Of a stretch of DNA of 39,645 nucleotides, positions 1 to 37,091 are shown piece after piece. The DNA lies in the NCBI GenBank assembly GCA_004376295.1, contig SOJZ01000040.1:1-39645 (forward strand), given 5' to 3'. Both the position numbers and the translations under genes were made by a program. The notes under the pieces are model-generated. The model was not told the DNA's origin, ran no database searches, and saw only the letters and a list, made by a program, of their open reading frames with translations. How positions within the stretch are numbered: the first letter of the stretch is position 1; the number at the start of each line of letters is the position of its first letter. This stretch comes from Candidatus Bathyarchaeota archaeon (GTDB lineage: Archaea > Thermoproteota > Bathyarchaeia > Bathyarchaeales > Bathyarchaeaceae).

Positions 1-120
1 GATATTACTGGTCCTGAGGATCCGCCTGCTAGTGGAGAGTATCCGCCTGACGGGGCGGTTGACGGCTGGGACATGACGTTAGCAAGCAAAAACTATGGGA
101 GATCAGTCTCCCTTCCATAG
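1..120 (+). CDS. C-terminal end of a dockerin-type surface protein (partial)
   Basis: The open frame enters from the left edge and ends at a TAG at 118-120. It encodes about 39 residues: DITGPEDPP..., a Pro-rich stretch, then DGAVDGWDMTLASKNYG. This is the last repeat of the expanded-loop dockerin also seen at the ends of the proteins at 1891 and 6832, and its DNA is very similar to both. The rest of the gene lies outside the window, so its catalytic or structural domains are unknown. Dockerins are known to bind cohesin domains. Here the nearby cohesin-like proteins (459-1331 and 7540-9096) are the obvious candidate partners, by inference only. Confidence 0.75.
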   Translation, partial: DITGPEDPPASGEYPPDGAVDGWDMTLASKNYGRSVSLP

Positions 121-458
121 GTTCGGAGTTTGTCTCTGTTGAAGCATGCATGGATTATTCTAATGTTGAATTTGTAGCTTTTAACATTAAAAATCCTTCA
201 AGCAAAGCCTGAAGTTCGGAAATCAAGCAAAAACTAAAACGACAATGCAGGTAATTTCAAGGTATTAAAATGTATGGCTCTTGTGTGATGTAGCTACAGT
301 CTGTGGGATCATAAACGTACTTGTTTCCCGACCACTGGGGCCTGTTCCGTAGAGCAAGCTGGTCCACTGATGCATGCATGGAGTTTTGTAATAGAAGATA
401 ATACAACAAATTATTTAAATGAGAGTTGCGTAACAATGTGGTAGTGAGAGGAGAAAGG
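121..458. other. Intergenic region upstream of the cohesin-like gene
   Basis: These 338 bases hold no convincing gene. Two copies of a GCATGCAT-type palindrome occur (about 144-153 and 370-381). A TATA-box-like TTATTTAAAT lies at 411-420, followed by the ribosome binding site of the next gene. The reading frames on either strand here lack protein-like composition. Confidence 0.5.
411..420 (+). promoter_or_regulatory. TATA-box-like promoter for the 459 gene
   Basis: TTATTTAAAT resembles an archaeal TATA element. A transcript starting about 25 bases downstream (near 442-446) would have a short leader containing GAGGAGAAAGG (447-457) just before the ATG at 459. Inferred from sequence only. Confidence 0.45.
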
Positions 459-1331
459 ATGAGAAAAAGGAGAATTGTATATCTTTCACTTGTCATAGCA
501 ATACTTAGCATAACCCTAATGGCAGCCACAGGTATACGAAATGTTTCAGCAACAGACACACCACGAATCTTCGTTTTCCCTGCAAGCAGAACAGGACCCT
601 ATAATACGGGGCAATTACTTACATGGCAGGTAAGAATCGACAGCACATCGGGTAACGGTGCACCTCACGTAACTACTGAGGCGGCAGCAGACAGTGACAA
701 AACGTGGGCTTGGGAAGTCATAATAACATATGACGAAACCGTGGTAAATGTAACTACTGCGCCGTACAGGCATACCTCAAGAGATTGGTTCAACTCGTTC
801 CATAAGTGGTTCTGGGATGGGGATATGTGGGAGTGGGAAGACCTTGGATCGTATCAAAACTCCTTTGCTGGATCTGTTGATCAGGATACTGGTACAATGA
901 GTGCGTGGTGTGGGCTCATAGAAGATCCGACGGATGATCTGCTTCCATCTGGCGACGAGGACCCGTTTCCAAACGCCGGTTTGCATTCGGGAAGCTACTA
1001 CGACCTACCATACACAGATGGCATAAGCACATCTTCGCTCGTGTTTCCGCCGGGAGGTTGGTCTGGTGACTACTTCATTCTGTTCATGTTTAAGACTACT
1101 CTGTTGGTAGATGTTCCGCCAGGCTACAGTCCGCTTGCCATCGATGAAGCCAGACTTTGGTGTTACGACGGACAGACGCTTTACCCAGCCACAACAGAAG
1201 ATGCCGATCTCGGTACACCACCAAGTCCAGAGTTCCCACTAGGACTAGAAATAATGATGATGGTAACTGCAGCGGTACCCATCGTGTACATTTGGCGACT
1301 GCGCAAACGCGTCCACAAGAAGGTGCTGTAA
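459..1331 (+). CDS. Secreted cohesin-like protein with a PEF-type C-terminal sorting signal
   Basis: 290 residues. The ATG at 459 is preferred over the TTG at 426 because GAGGAGAAAGG sits directly before it and the protein then begins with a clean signal peptide (MRKRRIVYLS..., about 30 residues). The middle region has cohesin-like spacing: a strand near TWQVRIDS, then ITYDETVVNVT, then a late strand FMFKTTLLVDVP. This is a pattern-level match, not proven. The tail has SPEFPLG, a hydrophobic stretch (MMMVTAAVPIVYIW) and a basic end (RLRKRVHKK), which is the tripartite layout of PEF-CTERM sorting signals processed by archaeosortases. An archaeosortase gene lies at 10583. The stop codon directly abuts the ATG of the next gene, implying an operon. 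Likely role: surface-anchored receptor for dockerin proteins. Confidence 0.65.
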   Translation: MRKRRIVYLSLVIAILSITLMAATGIRNVSATDTPRIFVFPASRTGPYNTGQLLTWQVRIDSTSGNGAPHVTTEAAADSDKTWAWEVIITYDETVVNVTTAPYRHTSRDWFNSFHKWFWDGDMWEWEDLGSYQNSFAGSVDQDTGTMSAWCGLIEDPTDDLLPSGDEDPFPNAGLHSGSYYDLPYTDGISTSSLVFPPGGWSGDYFILFMFKTTLLVDVPPGYSPLAIDEARLWCYDGQTLYPATTEDADLGTPPSPEFPLGLEIMMMVTAAVPIVYIWRLRKRVHKKVL

Positions 1332-1790
1332 ATGAAAACACGAAGGCTAACCGTGCTTTCCCTAATCCTACTGGCAGCACTACTGGTAGGCGCAATTGCC
1401 ATCAACGCCACTGCGGCAAAAACATTGAAACTAAAGGTGAAGTGGAAGCCTCCTGACTACTTGTTAGACAGCAATCCACCAGATCCATGGAACGCAGAAA
1501 TGTGGCTTACGGGTGATCACGATTTTACCGAAATAGACCCCACAACCATCTGGCTTGAAGGCATATACTCACCTGAATATGACCCATACCCATCAGAGAA
1601 CAAGCCTAGACTGGTCGTGCCCTTCGACGGCTACGATGTACTGATAGCCCTAATGCTTAAAGTGGGTCACATGGTGCCTGGAGGAGAATACCGCGTCTAT
1701 CTAGAGATCACAGGAGAACTCAACGATGGAACACCCTTCGCAGGTAAAAGCGGCATAAGCCTGCTGATCCCAGAGAACCCTGGGCCATAA
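1332..1790 (+). CDS. Small secreted protein, paralogue of the protein at 36621-37091
   Basis: 152 residues with an N-terminal signal peptide (MKTRRLTVLSLILLAALLVG, then INATAA). There is no C-terminal membrane segment. The mature part is a compact beta-rich domain with EMWLTGDHDFTEIDPTTIWL followed near the end by ITGELNDGTPFAGKSGI. The same two blocks recur in the protein at 36621-37091 (AHIWFSEEDYDVNNIDISSV and GNLNGGNPFEGSDKIRV), so the two are paralogues. This type of domain is common in secreted proteins of archaea and some bacteria, but I know of no assigned function. The ATG follows the upstream TAA with no gap, so translation is probably coupled to the cohesin-like gene and the product probably acts at the cell surface with it. 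Confidence 0.75.
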   Translation: MKTRRLTVLSLILLAALLVGAIAINATAAKTLKLKVKWKPPDYLLDSNPPDPWNAEMWLTGDHDFTEIDPTTIWLEGIYSPEYDPYPSENKPRLVVPFDGYDVLIALMLKVGHMVPGGEYRVYLEITGELNDGTPFAGKSGISLLIPENPGP

Positions 1791-1828
1791 TCTAGAAACC
1801 TCCCCCCTTTTATCAGCCCAACAGTTTA

Positions 1829-1848
1829 CATCGTTTTGTTAGTTTTTA
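1829..1848 (+). terminator. T-rich tract after the two-gene surface operon
   Basis: The sequence CATCGTTTTGTTAGTTTTT about 40-55 bases after the TAA of the small secreted gene resembles an archaeal oligo-T terminator. There is no strong hairpin. It separates this operon from the NosD gene at 1891. Confidence 0.3.
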
Positions 1849-1890
1849 ACAACGGCGGTGCGCGTATCGTGTTTATCAAGGAGATTATGA

Positions 1891-3771
1891 ATGTTGAATT
1901 GCAAAGGAAACATGGTTCACCAAGCTAAAATGCTAAAAGGTGGACTGTCTGCTGAATCGAGCGCACGCGCATTAGTGTTAATTGCATGTTTATTGTCAAT
2001 CGTACTCTCTTTTTATCAGATTAAACCAGCTTACAGTCAAACTATTCATGTTCCGGATGAATTTGATACAATACAAGAGGCAGTAAACAACGCCACTGCT
2101 GGCTACACAATACAAGTAGGTCCAGGAATCTACTACGAGCACGTTGAGGTGACCAAATCCCTAACGATAATTGGGGAAGACCCCCTAACTACAATAGTTG
2201 ACGGAACCGCTAATGGGACGGTGTTCGACCTAGAGGAAGCGAGCAACGTTAACATAGCTGGTTTCACAATACGCAATGCAGGAAACAGCTATAATGCCAT
2301 AGCCTTAACAAAGGCACTACCAGCCAATGATTACCACCAGATTATCAACAATATCATAACAACAAGTCAACACGGCGTTTTCGTGAGCCATTCCAGAAGC
2401 AATACTATTTTCAATAACACGTTCGTCAGCAATGGTCTTGCAGGCATCTGCCTAAATGATGCTGACAACGTCAACATTACAGCAAACACCATAGCGGACA
2501 GCGCCCATGGCATTAAAATGACGTCTACCCTCGACGCCGATATCATAGGCAACACTATCTATCAAACTTCCTACGCGGTTCACATAACCTCATCCTCCAC
2601 AGGAACCACCATAAGACACAATCTTATATCCGGACAGACGGCAGGAGTATATTCAACTTCAGACAGCACCACCATCGACCACAACACAATAGAAGAAGGC
2701 GCATACGGCGTCTACTTCTACAACTGCTACGATGGTGCAGTCTACTACAACACTTTCATGAACAATTCATACGGCATCCGGCTATACATGCCGACATCAT
2801 CAGCCTCAAGCCACAACATCGATAACAACAAAATACTGAACACTGACTGGGCACTTGAGCTGGTAAACGCAGATGGCAACACATTTACAGGCAATTGGAT
2901 ACAACAAAACACATATGGAATATACATGTCAAGCTCCAGCTCCAACACCGTCTACCACAACAACTTTGTCAACAACAACATGCAAACGTATTCGGGGATA
3001 GGAACAGGAAACCAGTGGGACAATGGTTATCCTTCTGGCGGAAACTACTGGAGCGACTATGCTGATGAAGATAACTACAGTGGTCCCGACCAAGACCAGC
3101 CTGGAGGTGATGGCATAGGCGATGCATCATACAGGATATTGCCTATGGGATATGACGACTATCCTCTCATGACTACGTGGAGCGAACACGATGTATCAAT
3201 TCAAAGTGTCACAGTTTCCACGAATGAAATCAATCCATACTTGCAGCCAATAGTAAACATTACAGTCACCGTTATAAACCGAGCAAACATAAGCGTGTCA
3301 GAAACCTTCAACGTGACAGCAAAATATAACCTCAACATCATCGGAACAAAACCAGTCAGCGATCTGGCACAGGGAGCAACCGAAACCTTAGAATTCAACT
3401 GGAACACCTCACTGGTCGCTCCTGGAAACCATGCGATAAGCGCAGAAGCAAGCACAGTACCTGATGAACTCAACACTGACAACAACGTTTTCATTGACGG
3501 TGAAGCCACGGTAATCCTTATGGGCGACATCACGGGTCCGGAGGATCCGCCTGGTGGTGGAGAGTACCCGCCAGACGGAAGAGTTGACGGCTGGGACATG
3601 ACAGCGTTCGGTAAGGCTTACGGGTCTACTCCAGGCGCGTCAAACTGGAATGAGGATGCCGACATCACGGGTCCTGAGGATCCACCTGGTAGTGGACAGT
3701 ACCCGCCTGACGGGGTGGTTGATGGTTGGGACGTGACGGCAGCAAGCAAGAACTACGGAATATCCATCTGA
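1891..3771 (+). CDS. NosD-like beta-helix surface protein with CARDB and double dockerin
   Basis: 626 residues. The ATG at 1891 has AAGGAG at 1878-1883. A signal segment at about 27-48 ends near PAYSQ. Residues 50-410 form a right-handed parallel beta-helix of the NosD/PbH1 type: it opens with IHVPDEFDTIQEAVNNAT and has many repeats such as NTIFNNTF, and the typical closing block GGNYWSDYADEDN...DDYPLM. Residues about 430-540 are a CARDB-like domain (HDVSIQSVTVS, then NVTVTVINR-like strands). The last 81 residues hold two dockerin repeats with an expanded calcium loop: DITGPEDPPGGGEYPPDG at residue 546 and DITGPEDPPGSGQYPPDG at residue 591. Beta-helices of this class often bind or cleave carbohydrate, but no catalytic set is obvious. 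Probably exported and tethered through a cohesin. Confidence 0.85.
   Translation: MLNCKGNMVHQAKMLKGGLSAESSARALVLIACLLSIVLSFYQIKPAYSQTIHVPDEFDTIQEAVNNATAGYTIQVGPGIYYEHVEVTKSLTIIGEDPLTTIVDGTANGTVFDLEEASNVNIAGFTIRNAGNSYNAIALTKALPANDYHQIINNIITTSQHGVFVSHSRSNTIFNNTFVSNGLAGICLNDADNVNITANTIADSAHGIKMTSTLDADIIGNTIYQTSYAVHITSSSTGTTIRHNLISGQTAGVYSTSDSTTIDHNTIEEGAYGVYFYNCYDGAVYYNTFMNNSYGIRLYMPTSSASSHNIDNNKILNTDWALELVNADGNTFTGNWIQQNTYGIYMSSSSSNTVYHNNFVNNNMQTYSGIGTGNQWDNGYPSGGNYWSDYADEDNYSGPDQDQPGGDGIGDASYRILPMGYDDYPLMTTWSEHDVSIQSVTVSTNEINPYLQPIVNITVTVINRANISVSETFNVTAKYNLNIIGTKPVSDLAQGATETLEFNWNTSLVAPGNHAISAEASTVPDELNTDNNVFIDGEATVILMGDITGPEDPPGGGEYPPDGRVDGWDMTAFGKAYGSTPGASNWNEDADITGPEDPPGSGQYPPDGVVDGWDVTAASKNYGISI
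3526..3762 (+). repeat. Two expanded-loop dockerin cassettes
   Basis: Units start at 3526 and 3661, a spacing of 135 bases. Each encodes DITGPEDPP, a short Gly-rich linker, YPPDG, V-D-G-W-D and a following helix. At DNA level they closely resemble the units at 1-107 and, on the other strand, 6847-7080. Shared wording such as GGTCCTGAGGATCC in different genes suggests recent duplication or gene conversion. Confidence 0.75.
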
Positions 3772-3843
3772 TTCTGAAATGCATACATGCAGATGAGAAA
3801 GCGGTGATAAAACATTCTACTTACACTTCTGGGGGGATCATAC

Positions 3844-6639
3844 TTGACTAAGAGAGACGGAGCAAAACTCCTTTACATTCTTCTTCTGTCCGCACTGGTC
3901 TCTTTCTCCATATTGTCCAGCATTCCAACAGCCACTCCCACCGATTTCAAACAAGAAAAAACACGAGACACCACGGAAACAACGCTTCAAGCAGCACCTT
4001 CTGATGCCAAGAATCTGACGTTCACGCCCGCAATGTGGAAACCGTTCTGGGTTGACCAAGACAACAACAGGGTTGCTGACTCACTTGACCAAGAAATCGT
4101 GACTAGAATGGCTAACGACACCCATGAGGACTACACAAACGTTATTGTAGCCCTAAAATCTGAACCAACAGCCTATGATGCAAACACCTTCGCCTTGTTC
4201 GGCGGGTATGTAACCACCTCTCCATGGAAATACGCGATCTATGGATTCGGTGGACAAATACCTTACAACAGAATAGTGGACTTTGCAGAATCTAACCCTA
4301 ATGTTCTTCTAGTTGAGAAGGAAACGGTCTTTCATGCCACAATCGCCTACGCAGCTTCACAGGTAGGTGCGAGAACATACGTCTGGAACACCTTGGGACT
4401 TCAGGGGGACTCAAACTCATCCATAGCCATCGTAGACTCAGGCATAGACGACTCTCACCCAGACTTCTCGCCAGGGTTTGGAGACCAAAACTTCACGAAG
4501 AAGATAGTCGGATGGAACGACCAGATAAACCCTGGCACAACCTCTCCATACGACGATGATGGACACGGCTCACACGTCGCAGGATTAGCTGCTGGAAACG
4601 GTTTCTACAGCACGGACGCCTCGGGAAACGCGATCGCCACTTGGGGAGCAAATCTCGGAGAAATGCCCACAGGGACTTACTACATAAGCGGCATGATGGT
4701 GAACAAGACGGGTCTCATAACGATAAAGGTGAAGTGGAAAAACTCTTGGAAAGGAACGCTGGGCGCTCTTCGCCTGTACTACGGAGACAAGACACTGACA
4801 GGAAGCTGGACTCTGGTGGACTCTGTGAACCCAAGCATCAAAGATCAATGGTATACTCTAACCCACGAGGTAACGTCAACTCCTTCAGGCGGCTACGACA
4901 TGTATCATATATTGATGTCCTTCACAGCAGGAAGCCCCTCTTGGCTCGATAATTTCTATGTAGTCTTTACAATGTCTTGGCCGTACAATCCGCCTGCAGA
5001 CGGCTTTCCAGCTTGGACAGGTATTGCACCTGAAGCTAAGCTTGTAGGAGTCAAAGCGATAGACTACACTGGCAGCGGAACAGACACAGGACTAATCAGT
5101 GCCATCAACTGGATTATTGCGAACAGAGAAGCCTATCACATCGTCATCACAAGCATGAGCTTGGGCTTCTCCGTTGAAGTTGCCACAGTAGATGCTGCCA
5201 TTGTAAACCTGGTAAACAGTGGAGTAACCACGATTGTCTCAGCTGGAAACAGCGGACATGGAGGAAACAATATATACACACCCGGCTCCGTGGACGAGGT
5301 AATCACCGTAGCTGCCACAAACCAGTTTGACAACATAGTCCATTTTAGCAGCCAAGGTGGAACCTCGCGACACACAGGCAATACTATGAAGCCAGATGTA
5401 GCTGCTCCTGGAGGCAGCTTCTTTGCCGTTCCTTTGTTCAGTGCAGATAGCAATGATTGGGACGCAGGAAAGATGTGGTCAGACGTCCTGAATGATGATG
5501 GAGCTCCAATGCAGGGGACCTCCATGTCTACTCCCATAGTGGCGGGTGCTGCAAACATCATAATTCAAGCTATGGGCGGATTTGCTGATTGGCAGTACAC
5601 ACGCGGTCAAGCCTTGCTGCCGAAAATGATCTTGCTGATGACTGCCACAGAAATCTATCCAAACTCAAGAGAATATTATACTTCGTACAGCCCGACTTTA
5701 GAGAGAGGTGGTAAAGATGTTCATGAGGGTTATGGCAGACTGAACCTTGATGCAGCAGTGGATGCTGTATTGAAGACCTATGAGGTTGGGACAACAGTCG
5801 CTGATACGTTAGGTAAGCCTCCAACTCTTTCAGACATCTCGGTGCTCGGCCAAAAGCTTGCATGGGCTAGAAAGATGCAGCTTGTTACGGTTGGGAGGCA
5901 CAACTTCACACTTGAGGTTCCTACGGGAGCAGACTTTGACCTTTACATCTACAACAGCACAGGCACATCTTATGGAGAACCAGCCATAATAGCAGAAAGC
6001 ATAAACGCCACAACTGGAGGATATGAACAGATTATTCTAAACGCACCATACAATGGAACCTACTACCTGGTTGTGAAGCGAGCAACAGCCACTACAGGAG
6101 ACGGTACATTCACTTTGGAAAGCGCATTCACGCCGAACCACGATGTGGCCGTGCGGGAAGTTGAGCCATCTGTCTCCCCAGTCTATGAAGGTAACACGCT
6201 AAACATTACCGTCACCGTGAAAAATAAGGGACTCAACACGGAATCATTCAACGTCACCACCTTCTACAACAACAGCGCCATAGAAACACAAATCGTATCG
6301 AACTTGAACCCAAGCGACGCAACCACGTTAAATTTCACTTGGAACACATCTGGAGTAACCCCTAGCAACTACACAATCAAGACAGAAGCCACCATCGTAG
6401 AGAACGAGTACAACACCACTGACAACACATTCATTAACGGAATAGTCTACGTAAAAATTCCAGGCGACGAAAACGGCGATGGCACAGTAGACAACTCCGA
6501 CTTAGCAGCCCTCGTCAACGCATATGGAAGCACACTAGACGCTCCAAACTGGAATCCAGACAGCGACTTCAACACAGACAACATAATCGACGCTCTGGAC
6601 TTGGCAATATTCAGCAGAAACTACGGAGAAGCAATTTGA
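3844..6639 (+). CDS. Secreted subtilisin-like serine protease with PPC, CARDB and dockerin domains
   Basis: 931 residues. The TTG at 3844 is chosen because GGGGGGATC lies just upstream; a signal peptide follows (residues 9-30). The S8 catalytic set is complete: Asp198 in IVDSGIDDSHPDF, His241 in DDDGHGSHVAG, oxyanion Asn469 in SAGNSGHG and Ser560 in GTSMSTPIVAGA. About 130 residues after the His motif (roughly 260-385) form a jelly-roll-like insertion that interrupts the protease fold. Downstream come a PPC-like domain (VTVGRHNFTLEVPTGADF to about 760), a CARDB-like domain (HDVAVREVEPSVS) and a conventional dockerin (GDENGDGTVDNSDL and DFNTDNIIDALDL, residues 874-931). Expected role: extracellular protein processing or nutrient acquisition, docked to a cohesin. 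The N-terminal region resembles an I9-like propeptide. Confidence 0.92.
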   Translation: MTKRDGAKLLYILLLSALVSFSILSSIPTATPTDFKQEKTRDTTETTLQAAPSDAKNLTFTPAMWKPFWVDQDNNRVADSLDQEIVTRMANDTHEDYTNVIVALKSEPTAYDANTFALFGGYVTTSPWKYAIYGFGGQIPYNRIVDFAESNPNVLLVEKETVFHATIAYAASQVGARTYVWNTLGLQGDSNSSIAIVDSGIDDSHPDFSPGFGDQNFTKKIVGWNDQINPGTTSPYDDDGHGSHVAGLAAGNGFYSTDASGNAIATWGANLGEMPTGTYYISGMMVNKTGLITIKVKWKNSWKGTLGALRLYYGDKTLTGSWTLVDSVNPSIKDQWYTLTHEVTSTPSGGYDMYHILMSFTAGSPSWLDNFYVVFTMSWPYNPPADGFPAWTGIAPEAKLVGVKAIDYTGSGTDTGLISAINWIIANREAYHIVITSMSLGFSVEVATVDAAIVNLVNSGVTTIVSAGNSGHGGNNIYTPGSVDEVITVAATNQFDNIVHFSSQGGTSRHTGNTMKPDVAAPGGSFFAVPLFSADSNDWDAGKMWSDVLNDDGAPMQGTSMSTPIVAGAANIIIQAMGGFADWQYTRGQALLPKMILLMTATEIYPNSREYYTSYSPTLERGGKDVHEGYGRLNLDAAVDAVLKTYEVGTTVADTLGKPPTLSDISVLGQKLAWARKMQLVTVGRHNFTLEVPTGADFDLYIYNSTGTSYGEPAIIAESINATTGGYEQIILNAPYNGTYYLVVKRATATTGDGTFTLESAFTPNHDVAVREVEPSVSPVYEGNTLNITVTVKNKGLNTESFNVTTFYNNSAIETQIVSNLNPSDATTLNFTWNTSGVTPSNYTIKTEATIVENEYNTTDNTFINGIVYVKIPGDENGDGTVDNSDLAALVNAYGSTLDAPNWNPDSDFNTDNIIDALDLAIFSRNYGEAI

Positions 6640-6792
6640 GAGAAATTGGAAGATAGATTTTCAAGAAGGATCTCATGTACTGTTCTCATGTCATGCATGC
6701 ATTGACCCATCAATAGCATTCCCTATTTTACAGAAAGGAAGAGACTATCTAAGGATAGAGCTAAGAGGGAATTCAACCACTATTTTGTCTCA

Positions 6793-6824
6793 TTTGATTT
6801 TCAGAAAATTGTGTAGAAAAAAAG
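6793..6824. terminator. Bidirectional terminator region between convergent genes
   Basis: Convergent genes end at 6639 (+) and 6832 (-). ATTTTC-A-GAAAAT forms an inverted repeat at 6797-6809, and seven adenines at 6817-6823 give a T-tract for transcripts leaving the minus-strand gene. The rest of 6640-6792 holds no gene, only one GCATGCAT palindrome near 6693. Confidence 0.4.
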
Positions 6825-6831
6825 AGGGAGT

Positions 6832-7515
6832 TTAGGGGTCGATTTTTCCGTAGTTTTTGCTTGCCAACGTCATGTCCCAGCCGTCAACCACTCCGTCTGG
6901 CGGGTACTGTCCACTGGCAGGCGGATTTTCAGGGCCGGTCATGTCTGCGTCTTCGTTCCAGTTTGACGAGCCTGAGGTAGACCCGTAAGCCTTACTCAGT
7001 GCTGTCATGTCCCAGCCGTCAACTCTTCCGTCAGGCGGATACTCTCCGCTGGCAGGCGGATTCTCAGGACCCGTGATGTCTCCCATTATTGACAAGATGC
7101 TAGCTTTGCCGGTTACCCAGAGGCGTTCGAAGCTGTAGTAGATTAATTTGCAGGGTTCGGTGAAGGTGTGTGACCAAGATTGGCCTGGCGGGATGGGGGC
7201 TGGTACTAGGTAGGTTGATGTGTTTCCTGCGAATACGAGCCATAGTGTATAGATCACTTGGTCATTGTTGGTCCATGTAACCATGTCGCCTTTTTCAATG
7301 CAGATGCGTGGTGGGGTAAAGGAAAAGTCAAGGATGGCTACGTTCTGAAGGCCTAGTGCTTCGGGTTCGAAGAGTAGATCAGGCATGGTTGTGTCGTGCG
7401 TTGTCGGTGTGTGCGCAATTAGTGGGATCAGTAGATTTGACGTTGCGAGTATCAAGGATATAGCTAAGATTGCCGCCAAGAGCAACAGTTGTTTTTGCGA
7501 CAGTTTCAGAGTCAT
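6832..7515 (-). CDS. Secreted cupredoxin-like protein with double expanded-loop dockerin
   Basis: 227 residues starting at ATG 7515. An N-terminal hydrophobic signal (residues 9-34) is followed by a plastocyanin-like domain (about 55-142): DFSFTPPRICIEKGDMVTWT, NNDQ, PGQSWSHTF and a closing WVTGKAS strand match the fold. The normal type 1 copper ligands look lost. The first His position reads VIYTLW, and the usual Y-C-x-x-H-x-x-M segment reads YYSFERLWVTG. The domain is therefore probably structural or binds something else. Two dockerin repeats begin at residues 146 and 191 with the 12-residue loop insertion (DITGPENPPASGEYPPDG). The cohesin-bearing gene lies 25 bases upstream on the same strand, so the dockerin protein and its likely partner are probably co-transcribed. 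Confidence 0.8.
   Translation of the reverse strand: MTLKLSQKQLLLLAAILAISLILATSNLLIPLIAHTPTTHDTTMPDLLFEPEALGLQNVAILDFSFTPPRICIEKGDMVTWTNNDQVIYTLWLVFAGNTSTYLVPAPIPPGQSWSHTFTEPCKLIYYSFERLWVTGKASILSIMGDITGPENPPASGEYPPDGRVDGWDMTALSKAYGSTSGSSNWNEDADMTGPENPPASGQYPPDGVVDGWDMTLASKNYGKIDP
6847..7080 (-). repeat. Two expanded-loop dockerin cassettes (minus strand)
   Basis: Units start at 7080 and 6945 reading leftwards, again 135 bases apart as at 3526-3762. The encoded motif is D-x-T-G, a 12-residue Pro-rich insert, then DGxVDGWDMT. The second unit is nearly the same as the fragment at 1-107. Confidence 0.75.
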
Positions 7516-7539
7516 TCGATTTGATCTCCTGGTTTGATC

Positions 7540-9096
7540 TTATGGGTCGTAGGGGAAGTAGGTTGACCACCAGTACCAGTGGTTCCAGTAGGTCCAGTGC
7601 CACCACCATCCCCACGTAGGTCGCCAATATGGTATGTCGGTGTATGGATAATAGTAGCTCTTCGTGTAGGTTCGCCACCACCAGTATGGACCCCAGAACC
7701 AGTTAGGATGGCTGTGTGAATTGTACCACCAGTAAGGCCACCTGACGACTTTTCCGATTGGAGTCCAAGCCCACCAGTAGAAATCGACGAAGATGTATGG
7801 TTGTGCGTTGACTATGATGTAGGGATCTACTTCGGGAACTTGTTCGGGTGGAAGTAGATTTGTGACGAAGCCCATTGCCATGCCAGGGTCAGTCAGGTCT
7901 TCCATTTCAAATGATAACATACAGGCACGCGTGCCGTCCTCCAGAGTGTCGTTGGACCACCAAGAGGTCACAGTTCCAATGTACTCTTCGTCCCACATGT
8001 ATACTTCACTAGCAGTTCCATCAGCTTCATCAAATGTGTATCCTTTTGCAAGCAGCTCTGCCATGACTTCAGGGTAACCTTCGGGTGAACCAGGTACGAA
8101 GAACGGTATGTCCACTAGGTAGTATGGGTATGCCCACTCTACGATGTGTTGCAGTTTTACTGGTTCTGTGGTTCCAACTTGTATAACTCTGCCACTCGGG
8201 CCGATTAATCTAGGAATCGTCAGGCCCATAGAGTCGTAGAGAATCACTTGATCTATGTTCAAGGTGCTTTCTCCTGCTCCAGTACAGTGGAACGTGATTG
8301 TTGCAATGGCTCCGCTGCCGTCGGCTCCAGCTGGTTGAGTAGATGTTACACCAAACTGTATTGTGCCTGCTGCATCGTCAATGTTCTTGTGATTTACGAG
8401 TACGGGTGGTGGAATAAAGCCGGCATCCTGGATATCAATACAGTCTACAACCGCGGTATTAGTATAGGACAGGGTCAAATCGTAGGCCCAAAGGTCGACG
8501 ACGTCTTTAACGTTTACGTTGACGGTGAATTGTACGCATATCGGTACTGTATATGTAGGCGGATCTATGGTGACGATAGCAGTTGGTCCTTCGTACTGAT
8601 TGACAACGCCAGGAATCACATTATCGGGGATCCAATGGTCTCCTGCCTGATCTGAGATCTCAATGAACTCCAAAGTTATAGGGGTCGATCCGGCGCCCTC
8701 GCAATGGAACTCAATAGATGCTAAAGTTCCGCTACCTGTAGCTCCACCGGCTGTTGTATCTCCTTGACAGAACACCTGACCTGCCACCGAAAGATCAGAC
8801 CAGAAGGCAACTGGTTCCACGAGGAAGTCACCATCATACGCAATAACCGGACTCATCTCAGCAGCAGGGTAGATTAACAGGAACTCGTAGTCATAAACAG
8901 GCCATTCGAAGAAGTCCTCAATGTTTACGTCAACCACGAAGTTTGTGCAAACTTCCACGTCAACTACAGAAGGCACTACACGTATCGTACACTCTACAGG
9001 GTATGGTTGTGCGAGTGTGGTAAACTGAAGTGCTGCAAACGTTGAGACGACAGTAGTAATGGTAAGCAATATGGCGATTAGTGTTTTTTTGTTCAT
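7540..9096 (-). CDS. Double-cohesin scaffold-like protein with aromatic-rich tail
   Basis: 518 residues from ATG 9096. This start is preferred over upstream ATGs at 9126 and 9105 because GGAGG lies about 10 bases before it and the signal peptide (MNKKTLIAILLTITTVVSTF) then begins cleanly. Two similar cohesin-like domains follow, about 36-165 and 175-305. Each has a starting strand (VVDVEVCTNFVVDVNIEDF; PICVQFTVNVNVKDVVD), a central Tyr-rich strand and a late G-S-G-x-[LI]-A-[ST]-I-x-F-H-C block. Residues about 310-425 are an unassigned alpha/beta region. The final 85 residues contain about 21 Trp and 15 Tyr, with clusters such as GPYWWW and GWWWHW. No membrane anchor is seen. The protein could act as a scaffoldin for the dockerin proteins around it; the tail may bind glycan or pack into the envelope. 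Confidence 0.75.
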   Translation of the reverse strand: MNKKTLIAILLTITTVVSTFAALQFTTLAQPYPVECTIRVVPSVVDVEVCTNFVVDVNIEDFFEWPVYDYEFLLIYPAAEMSPVIAYDGDFLVEPVAFWSDLSVAGQVFCQGDTTAGGATGSGTLASIEFHCEGAGSTPITLEFIEISDQAGDHWIPDNVIPGVVNQYEGPTAIVTIDPPTYTVPICVQFTVNVNVKDVVDLWAYDLTLSYTNTAVVDCIDIQDAGFIPPPVLVNHKNIDDAAGTIQFGVTSTQPAGADGSGAIATITFHCTGAGESTLNIDQVILYDSMGLTIPRLIGPSGRVIQVGTTEPVKLQHIVEWAYPYYLVDIPFFVPGSPEGYPEVMAELLAKGYTFDEADGTASEVYMWDEEYIGTVTSWWSNDTLEDGTRACMLSFEMEDLTDPGMAMGFVTNLLPPEQVPEVDPYIIVNAQPYIFVDFYWWAWTPIGKVVRWPYWWYNSHSHPNWFWGPYWWWRTYTKSYYYPYTDIPYWRPTWGWWWHWTYWNHWYWWSTYFPYDP

Positions 9097-9187
9097 CTCT
9101 CTCATTCCTCCTTTATATTGATACATTTATTTCATCACGCCTCATATGGCGCTCTGAAGGGCAAATCAAAGCAAATTCTGGAAATGC

Positions 9188-9485: not shown

Positions 9486-10583
9486 GTGAAAATCCCTATA
9501 GCCAAGCCAGATATCGGAAAAGACGAAATCCAAGCAGTCATAGAGACGATGAAAAGCGGCTGGGTTAGCCAAGGCGAGAAAGTTGAAGAGTTCGAGAAAT
9601 CATTCGCCAAATATTGTGGAGTCAAATATGGTGTTGCAGTCAATAATGGAACAGCGGCTCTCCACATGGCTTTGACCGCTCTCGACGTCAAACGTGGAGA
9701 CGAAGTTATTACAACCCCTCTCTCCTGTGTAGCCACCACCAACCCCATTGTCTATCTTGACGCAAAACCTGTGTTTGTGGATGTGGAGGCCACAACCTTG
9801 AACATAAACCCGGCGTTAATCGTGAAAAAAATCACGGATAGAACAAAGGCCATCATTCCCGTGCATCTGTTTGGGCATCCTGTTGATTTAGACCCTTTAA
9901 TGGAGGTTGCTCAAAAACATGATCTACCTGTGATTGAGGATGCAGCTCAAGCCCACGGAGCCAGATACAAAGGGAAAAAGGTGGGCTCATTCGGTTGTGT
10001 TTCTTGTTTCAGCTTTTACGTTGGCAAGCTTATCACTACTGTTGAAGGCGGCATAGCCTTAACTAATGACACGGAACTGGCTGAAAAAATGCGTCTGTTA
10101 AGAAGTTACGGGATGCACAAACGTGAAAAGTTCTATCATCCGATTTTAGGCTACAACTACAAGTTGTCAGACATTCACGCTGCAATAGGCTTGGTGCAAT
10201 TACGAAAACTCAATAACTACATTGAAAGGAAACGCGCCAATATTGAATATCTACGGAGTAAGCTTCATCATCTAAATCTGAAGTTGCCAGTAGAGCTGGA
10301 TTATGCCTTTAACGTGTACTACGCTTGCCATATTCTTGTAGAGAAGGAAAAAGAGAAAATCGTGGAGCATCTAGAGCGGGAAGGAATCGAGACCCGACCA
10401 CTGTTGTCATTTATTCCAGAACAACCACCATACCAAAAATATGGATACAACATAGACGAGTTGCAGGTGGCTAGAAATGCCCATCAGAAAGGATTCTACA
10501 TTTCGAACTCTCCCTTGCTAACTGAAAATGAACTTGACCTTGTGGCATCCACAATAATCAAATCTATTGGTGATATTCAATAG
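9486..10583 (+). CDS. DegT/DnrJ/EryC1/StrS-family sugar aminotransferase
   Basis: 365 residues from GTG. PLP-dependent sugar aminotransferases of this family convert keto-sugar nucleotides to amino sugars. Hallmarks are present: NNGTAALHMAL near residue 55, a VIEDAAQAHGA motif that binds the cofactor, the Schiff-base Lys181 in SFYVGKLITTVEGG, and NYKLSDIHAAIGLVQL downstream. Length is normal for the family. The stop codon TAG overlaps the GTG of the archaeosortase gene by one base, so the two are translationally coupled. The likely product is an amino-sugar precursor for the surface glycan made by the following cluster; the exact sugar cannot be told from sequence. Confidence 0.92.
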   Translation: MKIPIAKPDIGKDEIQAVIETMKSGWVSQGEKVEEFEKSFAKYCGVKYGVAVNNGTAALHMALTALDVKRGDEVITTPLSCVATTNPIVYLDAKPVFVDVEATTLNINPALIVKKITDRTKAIIPVHLFGHPVDLDPLMEVAQKHDLPVIEDAAQAHGARYKGKKVGSFGCVSCFSFYVGKLITTVEGGIALTNDTELAEKMRLLRSYGMHKREKFYHPILGYNYKLSDIHAAIGLVQLRKLNNYIERKRANIEYLRSKLHHLNLKLPVELDYAFNVYYACHILVEKEKEKIVEHLEREGIETRPLLSFIPEQPPYQKYGYNIDELQVARNAHQKGFYISNSPLLTENELDLVASTIIKSIGDIQ

Positions 10584-11491
10584 TGAAACTAAATAAAACA
10601 AGGTTCCCAAGTGTTCTATCTCTACTTGGGGGAAGGGTTAACCTGTTTTGGGTTTTAGCCTTTGCTCCACTTCTGGTGATCTTGTATTATCATTTTTTTG
10701 GTGTAATAATTCCGTTCTATGGTTTCTTGCTTCTCTTCTTGAAGTCTCAAAAACTTCTTGGTGTTAAGGAAGCAAATTTTGTGCAAAAAATTTTGGGTTT
10801 AGTTTTGGTGGTGGGTAGTTTCTTCGTTTATTATGGTGTGGTCTCAGTATATCCTGGAGTAGCCTTTTATACAGCAGCAAACTATGTCGTGTATCTCTTC
10901 GGGCTTTTCTTGATTTTCTTCGAGTTTTCTGTCCTTAAAGAAGCGTTTGCACCTCTGTTTCTTATAGTGGCTGCTACTTCAAGTTCTTTCATATCGGTGT
11001 GGTTGAAGCCCTTTCTTTCACCTTTTGCCAACGATTTTGCGCACATCATTATGAATATTTTGAGAGCAGTGGGCATAGATGCGAACACCTATTTCATAGG
11101 CAACACGCCCATCCTTACCATTTCGTCTCTTTCAGGGGAAATGGTTTCTGGCGCCTTTGTTTACGAGTGCATAGGCGTTTACAGCGCGTTGGTTTTTTCA
11201 ATTATACTTGTCGTTATCTTGTTTGAGGATCCCAGCGACTTGAAAGTGAAAGTAGCATATTCTATTGTTGGCGTTTTCGGCACCTTTGCCCTAAACATAC
11301 TTAGAGTCACTGTAATCTTTTTGACAGACTACTTTTATGGTGCAGAAGTAGGAGGATTTATTCATTACGTAATCGGATACATCCTCTTTACGATTTGGCT
11401 TGTGTTCTTCCTTTATGCTTACTCAAAGAGAAAAACTGTGCAGGCGAAAATTACGTCGTTTTGGCAGAGAATACGCAAGCGTAAGATGTAG
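10583..11491 (+). CDS. Archaeosortase/exosortase-family transpeptidase
   Basis: 302 residues from GTG, with about eight predicted membrane helices. Exosortases and archaeosortases cut C-terminal sorting tails and are thought to join the protein to a membrane anchor. The catalytic triad is visible in the normal order: Cys196 in VYECIGVYSAL, Arg241 in LNILRVTVI and His261 in GGFIHYVIGY. I cannot assign a known subtype (ArtA, ArtC and so on). The PEF-type tail of the 459-1331 protein is the best candidate substrate in the window, and the NosD protein at 34701 has a weaker tripartite tail. It lies in a surface-glycan cluster and overlaps the aminotransferase gene by one base. Confidence 0.88.
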   Translation: MKLNKTRFPSVLSLLGGRVNLFWVLAFAPLLVILYYHFFGVIIPFYGFLLLFLKSQKLLGVKEANFVQKILGLVLVVGSFFVYYGVVSVYPGVAFYTAANYVVYLFGLFLIFFEFSVLKEAFAPLFLIVAATSSSFISVWLKPFLSPFANDFAHIIMNILRAVGIDANTYFIGNTPILTISSLSGEMVSGAFVYECIGVYSALVFSIILVVILFEDPSDLKVKVAYSIVGVFGTFALNILRVTVIFLTDYFYGAEVGGFIHYVIGYILFTIWLVFFLYAYSKRKTVQAKITSFWQRIRKRKM

Positions 11492-36620: not shown

Positions 36621-37091
36621 TTAAGGGAAGATCATTTCTTCTTGCGTGAAGAACACTCTTATTTTGTCGCTTCCTTCGAAAGGGTTGCCACCATTCAGGT
36701 TGCCAGTCACTTTGAATGTTACCTCACTTTTGACACGCGGGGACATATGTTGAATCATAGACCATAGAAAGCCTATCACCATTCCTCTATCGAACTTAAC
36801 CATTAGTATATTTCCCTCAATGTTATACCTTGACACCGGAACATGACCCCCCATTACCTCCAAAGTAACAGACGATATGTCAATGTTGTTCACATCGTAA
36901 TCTTCTTCACTAAACCAAATGTGGGCGGTTATCCACTTGCCGTGGCCTCCCTCTTTGAGAAGCAATGAGTTCGGTTTAATATCTACATCCGCTATTATGC
37001 CGTTTGCCCTAACTTGAGTGATCACAAGCTGAATTCCAATTATTAAAGAAAACGTAAGAGCCAATGCCGTTAAAATCGTGTGTTTCCGCAC
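36621..37091 (-). CDS. Small secreted protein, paralogue of 1332-1790
   Basis: 156 residues from GTG 37091. Signal peptide of about 28 residues (LTALALTFSLIIGIQLV). The mature part has VDIKPNSLLLKEGGHGKW, AHIWFSEEDYDVNNIDISSV and GNLNGGNPFEGSDKIRV, matching the secreted protein at 1332. No membrane anchor at the end. Function unknown. Transcription probably starts from the TATA-like site at 37163-37172. Confidence 0.75.
   Translation of the reverse strand: MRKHTILTALALTFSLIIGIQLVITQVRANGIIADVDIKPNSLLLKEGGHGKWITAHIWFSEEDYDVNNIDISSVTLEVMGGHVPVSRYNIEGNILMVKFDRGMVIGFLWSMIQHMSPRVKSEVTFKVTGNLNGGNPFEGSDKIRVFFTQEEMIFP

Follow-up and report, generated by a model that had tools for sequence, protein, structure and literature searches.

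Known cohesin-dockerin systems and the Bathyarchaeia locus

Cohesins and dockerins were first found in archaea in Archaeoglobus, and two reports give their function outside cellulosomes as not known or not clear (PMC5244752, PMC9012536). Their abundance in anaerobic methanotrophic (ANME) archaea was noted earlier (Timmers et al. 2017, PMC5244752), and dockerins are described as common there on NikA/OppA-type solute-binding proteins (SBPs) of ABC transporters, together with scaffoldin-like proteins (Chadwick et al. 2022, PMC9012536). The locus analysed here belongs to a little-studied Candidatus Bathyarchaeota archaeon of sediments (assembly GCA_004376295.1) and lies partly on the 39,645-nucleotide contig SOJZ01000040.1 (C40), the whole of which is referred to as the window. 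It probably codes for a nutrient-capture system that is docked to the surface of the archaeal cell and in which dockerins serve as exchangeable anchors around an oligopeptide importer.

Because dockerin-bearing SBPs are already known in ANME archaea, the Bathyarchaeia case is best regarded as a variant from a different lineage, distinguished by the conservation of its locus and by signs that anchors have been replaced. As far as the available text of the ANME reports extends, domain inventories are presented there, whereas a conserved importer cluster, a subtilase passenger and membrane-tailed cohesins are found here, with dockerin and membrane anchor as alternatives. A search of open-access papers, which left most subscription journals uncovered, turned up no earlier account of such systems from Bathyarchaeia, although one may exist.

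With the clostridial cellulosome the locus shares the cohesin fold, the dockerin modules, proteins that contain both, and surface display. In contrast to that system, the genome has no large multi-cohesin scaffoldin, no glycoside hydrolase or carbohydrate-binding module was found in the proteins scanned, and a subtilase and a transporter binding protein take the place of cellulases. A cellulosome is ruled out, since two of its defining features were looked for and not found: a scaffoldin with several cohesins and a carbohydrate-binding module, and glycoside hydrolases over cut-off among the dockerin proteins scanned. Opp/Dpp importers with a membrane-anchored SBP resemble the locus in their OppB/C/D/F-type genes and SBP_bac_5 protein; they differ in that the SBP here appears to be held by a dockerin and has its halves swapped, while OppC has an extra segment of ~200 residues.

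Extent and gene content of the locus

The genome comprises 1.89 Mb in 44 contigs. The last 55 bases of contig C2 are exactly those that open C40 (contig-end comparison), and this 55-mer is unique in the genome, its nearest other copy, in the preceding dockerin repeat on C2, having one mismatch. The join is independently supported by Candidatus Bathyarchaeota archaeon CSMAG_2176 (G026), of the same genus, because its importer genes, SBP-dockerin, cohesins, BNR-dockerins, S8-dockerin and NosD-dockerin all lie on one contig. Judged from this overlap, the first 9 kb of the window close a longer locus on its right-hand side, one that continues from C2, and the dockerin fragment at its start would therefore complete a cohesin- and dockerin-containing protein that begins at C2:77168. 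The joined cluster spans ~31 kb, from C2:56105 to C40:9126, with ~22 kb on C2. Nine of the ten cohesins of the genome (cohesin profile) fall within these ~31 kb of 1.89 Mb, a clustering that exceeds chance. The main genes are the following.

C2:44523, upstream of the cluster: C25 peptidase bearing a membrane helix of its own (profile match)
C2, before 56105, minus strand: OppF-, OppD-, OppC- and OppB-type genes (family profile matches)
C2:56105 (L024:16106-18172), plus: SBP_bac_5 + dockerin (profile matches)
C2:58177, plus: cohesin (cohesin profile)
C2:59639, plus: BNR + CARDB + dockerin (profile matches)
C2:61743, plus: cohesin + PKD + CARDB + membrane helix (PF00963 over cut-off)
C2:63202, plus: cohesin + PKD/CARDB repeats + membrane helix (profile matches)
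C2:66861, plus: cohesin + dockerin (profile matches)
C2:68108, plus: cohesin + CARDB repeats + dockerin (profile matches)
C2:72600, plus: cohesin + PKD + membrane helix (profile matches)
C2:77168, plus: cohesin + dockerin, apparently completed on C40 (profile matches)
Window 1..120, plus: C terminus of that protein, the dockerin half (predicted start C2:77168, L025:17169; 55-bp overlap)
Window 1891..3771, plus: NosD-type right-handed beta-helix (PF05048, 154 bits; PF13229) + CARDB (PF07705) + dockerin (3526-3768; dockerin profile 74.5 bits)
Window 3844..6639, plus: secreted subtilase (S8; PF00082, 138 bits) + CARDB + type I dockerin (6460-6627; PF00404, 24.4 bits, over cut-off)
Window 6832..7515, minus: secreted cupredoxin-like domain (weak amicyanin/plastocyanin matches) + dockerin (6847-7080; 85% identical to that of the 1891 protein)
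Window 7540..9126, minus: secreted double-cohesin protein that ends in a Trp/Tyr-rich domain and lacks a membrane tail (profile, PDB search, fold)

Away from the cluster, contig C12 holds one further S8-dockerin and one further SBP-dockerin, the latter 80% identical to the C2:56105 SBP.

A dockerin-bearing binding protein beside a probable oligopeptide importer

All parts of an Opp/Dpp importer are present on C2, i.e., the SBP_bac_5 protein, two permeases and two ATPases with oligo_HPY, and the SBP-dockerin gene adjoins the OppB/C/D/F-type genes. As this gene sits on the neighbouring contig, the SBP dockerin was beyond the view of the original prediction, which had been made from the window. 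The best NCBIfam matches of the transporter genes are oligopeptide and dipeptide types, all under the equivalog cut-offs, and the best matches of the SBP in the PDB and NCBIfam are mostly peptide-binding proteins, these matches being weak and partial.

Related genomes were compared within the order (163 genomes), of which 78 contain cohesins according to the profile and 11 contain close relatives of the C2:56105 SBP. A search for the cluster in such genomes, suggested with the original prediction, recovered a DppB-type gene divergent from an SBP-dockerin gene that is followed by a cohesin gene at nine loci in seven genomes (the genome of the window, G026, G011 with three loci, G023, G097, G144 and G146).

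The SBP_bac_5 halves of the C2:56105 protein and ~20 relatives stand in swapped order. The N-terminal part matches profile positions 146-365 and the second half of Escherichia coli DppA, and it is the C-terminal part that resembles the first half of other SBPs, an arrangement that looks like a circular permutation. The OppC proteins beside the swapped SBPs (on C2, L024:13441-14889, and homologues) are longer by at least ~200 residues, placed between their first helix and the core of the permease; the segment is absent from OppC genes beside SBPs of normal order. As a candidate docking site for the dockerin this insert was rejected, because two normal-order dockerin SBPs adjoin OppC genes that lack it; it tracks the swapped SBPs and not dockerins as such.

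Dockerins and membrane tails are alternatives

The order supplied 83 SBP_bac_5 proteins that are complete and non-redundant. A C-terminal membrane helix, called by a simple Kyte-Doolittle hydropathy threshold, is present in none of the 25 proteins with a dockerin versus 34 of the 58 without (Fisher p=7e-8); when the proteins are clustered at 50% identity, p is 8e-5. This leaves 24 SBPs with neither dockerin nor C-terminal helix, many of which show by eye an apparent uncleaved N-terminal signal anchor, and the ends of two SBPs (L182 and L186) look by eye like missed dockerins. The same exclusivity is found across the loci, where membrane tails occur in 20/38 cohesin-only proteins, 0/37 dockerin-only proteins and 1/17 proteins with both modules (p=6e-8). 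Dockerin and membrane tail are thus alternatives on these proteins.

An exchange of anchors is also suggested by one gene pair of the window. Homologues of the Trp-rich domain of the 7540 protein and of the 6832 cupredoxin-like protein are neighbouring genes in G014, G015 and G018. In these genomes the Trp-rich protein is free of cohesins, and a dockerin is likewise absent from the cupredoxin-like protein, which shows apparent PKD and/or CARDB repeats instead; in G015, the one complete copy (that of G014 is cut by a contig end and that of G018 is partly masked), it ends in a membrane helix. In the genome studied here the Trp-rich partner bears two cohesins and the cupredoxin-like partner a dockerin. 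This apparent anchor swap is the best evidence for one particular pairing, of the 7540 protein with the 6832 protein.

Cohesins

The genome encodes about nine cohesin proteins, with at most two cohesins each; most have a single cohesin and several have their own membrane anchor. The 7540 protein is the only double-cohesin protein and is devoid of a membrane anchor. As originally predicted, its gene adjoins a dockerin gene (6832) on the same strand, both being on the minus strand. Its domains are as follows.

8608..8985, minus: cohesin 1, residues 48-173 (cohesin profile 77.7 bits)
8212..8574, minus: cohesin 2, residues 185-305 (cohesin profile 110 bits)
7549..8061, minus: Trp/Tyr-rich domain, residues 356-526 (~50% identity to free-standing secreted proteins of G014, G015 and G018)

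A local cohesin profile, seeded by eight domains of the genome, yielded 50 domains in the genome and the related regions. PF00963 is matched over its cut-off by C2:61743 and on C10; the 7540 protein has no PF00963 match, and when searched alone against the PDB it gave no cohesin match, although a family profile search did. In the latter, made with own-genome cohesins including both 7540 domains (profile A4), 33 of the 35 matches are cohesins or cohesin-like, with E-values down to 4e-5. The nine-strand jelly-roll proposed as a check on the original prediction is present in the AlphaFold model of cohesin 2, based on an eight-sequence alignment (pLDDT 90.5, nine strands), and the best 50 Foldseek matches listed from the PDB are all cohesins or cohesin-like proteins, with TM-scores of up to 0.81 (Clostridium cellulolyticum, 1g1k). 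The archaeal, non-cellulosomal cohesin of Archaeoglobus fulgidus (PDB entry 2xdh) matches with a TM-score of 0.76. Of the last 71 residues of the Trp/Tyr-rich domain, 18 are Trp and 13 are Tyr (composition). The domain gave no family match; it is possibly a metal- or aromatic-surface protein.

The original prediction had named two cohesin proteins, of which the 7540 protein stands; the second, the 459 protein, is a candidate only, a firm assignment as a cohesin being unsupported by profile or single-sequence fold. It has no Pfam match, its match to the local cohesin profile is weak (E 0.04; hhalign probability 58%), and a single-sequence model is uninformative (pLDDT 39).

Longer frames with several cohesins were observed in relatives from other Bathyarchaeia families (L110, G145:C1:1259001-1264193; L106, G097), among them one in G145 that runs to 2019 residues and holds two cohesins or more. 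Judging from these frames, larger scaffold-like cohesin proteins may exist there.

Dockerins and their passengers

All four dockerins originally claimed in the first 9 kb of the window (1-117, 1891-3771, 3844-6639, and 6832-7515 on the minus strand) are borne out by Pfam, sequence identity or the local profile. Three of them fall under the Pfam dockerin cut-off because both calcium loops have an insert of ~12 residues (DITG-PEDPPASGEYPP-DGxVDGWD). The identity among these three is ~80-85%, and a dockerin profile made from relatives recognises them; the 1-117 fragment is a C-terminal dockerin piece of 39 amino acids with 81% identity to the 1891 dockerin. Both calcium-loop repeats are present in the 1891 and 6832 dockerins, and the 3844 dockerin passes PF00404. 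The near-identical DNA repeat of the insert-bearing dockerins (window 6847-7080, 3526-3768 and 1-55; C2:77792-77981) lies where the assembly is broken between C2 and C40.

The protease, beta-helix and cupredoxin-like domain indeed have dockerins, as the original prediction held; the idea that they are gathered on one scaffold is not supported, the cohesins being spread over about nine proteins. G026 shares the NosD + dockerin and S8 + CARDB + dockerin architectures and has the same passengers, i.e., S8, NosD, two BNR proteins and an SBP. S8-dockerin genes number two in the genome of the window (C40 and C12) and one in G026, and C25 peptidase genes lie near the locus in the former and in G011.

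Proposed docked system and its alternatives

In the proposed mechanism, the cohesin proteins, several of them fixed in the membrane through a C-terminal helix, would display cohesin modules at the cell surface. Anchorless secreted proteins that end in dockerins (the SBP, subtilase, beta-propeller, NosD-type beta-helix and cupredoxin-like protein) would be retained there through cohesin-dockerin binding, and proteins with both modules could lengthen or branch the array. With the protease and the peptide-binding protein kept beside the importer, peptides cut outside the cell would be captured and imported and not lost by diffusion. An archaeal cohesin-dockerin surface system is supported, as originally predicted; that its cohesins and dockerins bind one another, and in which pairs, is inferred. 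Protein or peptide is the likely substrate. This reading draws on the subtilases among the passengers, on the C25 genes close by and on the families that the transporter genes match best, though none of these pins down the ligand.

Several observations weigh against this model. Neither the cohesin beside the SBP nor the double-cohesin 7540 protein has a membrane tail, S8-dockerin is confirmed in two genomes only, and the C25 proteins have no dockerin, that of the genome studied having its own membrane helix. The tail counts depend on the simple hydropathy threshold and are only partly corrected for shared ancestry. In addition, the SBP family also includes archaeal oligosaccharide binders.

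One alternative is a glycan version of the system, with a transporter that imports oligosaccharides and with beta-helix and propeller proteins that serve as polysaccharide lyase- or sialidase-like enzymes. The NosD/beta-helix and BNR propeller passengers, a sub-threshold GH43 match in one BNR protein of G011, the exopolysaccharide-type gene set that comes next in the window and the known oligosaccharide binding by archaeal Opp-family SBPs all fit it. However, no glycoside hydrolase or carbohydrate-binding module passes its cut-off in the dockerin proteins that were scanned, nor does such a binding module in the cluster proteins; the original prediction had likewise seen no glycoside hydrolase. 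The subtilase is the only recognisable hydrolase passenger, and the best matches of the SBP, weak and partial as they are, are mostly to peptide binders. The glycan version is therefore unlikely.

Less probable still is a role in surface decoration or adhesion between cells or between cells and particles, with proximity to the importer reflecting co-regulation only. The large cohesin proteins do hold PKD, CARDB and Ig-like repeats, and adhesion is put forward for ANME archaea in PMC5244752, but it is the binding protein that carries the dockerin, and in nine loci the SBP-dockerin/cohesin pair keeps its place beside the importer. That the folds no longer bind and are vestigial, or generic Ig-like and calcium-binding spacers, is very improbable: several dockerin loops have inserts or lack calcium-binding residues, e.g., in the first half of the C2:56105 SBP dockerin, yet the loss of membrane tails paralleled by dockerin gain, together with the anchor swap of the cupredoxin pair, fits retention by binding.

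The docked nutrient-capture model can be extended, more tentatively, to a distinct Bathyarchaeia ABC importer, whose rearranged, apparently circularly permuted SBP would be plugged by its dockerin into membrane cohesins, with an OppC containing the extra segment between first helix and core, and which would be fed by co-docked proteases as a modular protein-eating surface complex.

Other features of the window

459..1331, plus: secreted protein, possibly a very divergent cohesin, with a PEF-like hydrophobic basic tail (PSPEFPLG...RLRKRVHKK, by eye; no Pfam match)
1332..1790, plus: small secreted protein, no assigned function (phmmer E 1.5e-14 and 5.9e-11 to G026 C8:39130 and 39778)
10583..11491, plus: exosortase/archaeosortase, role in the cluster uncertain (PF09721, 54.7 bits; TIGR04178 over cut-off)

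The genome yielded this single exosortase/archaeosortase; it adjoins the cluster and opens the exopolysaccharide-type gene set. Suggestive PEF-like tails are present in the 459 protein and in G026 C8:50307. Anchoring of cohesins by PEF-CTERM and archaeosortase was considered and is not claimed, because despite these tails TIGR03024 (PEF-CTERM) is unmatched in the window and passes its cut-off nowhere in the genome. The two G026 relatives of the 1332 protein adjoin the NosD-dockerin gene of G026. The small secreted proteins at 36621-37091 and 1332-1790 are alike by eye in their C-terminal halves.

Significance

The locus offers concrete candidate cohesin-dockerin pairs and a simple possible role for them, as exchangeable surface anchors around an importer. 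For Bathyarchaeota it has been asked how protein degradation starts in cells that seemingly have no extracellular peptidases (PMC9534799). The predicted secreted subtilases with dockerins described here bear on this question.

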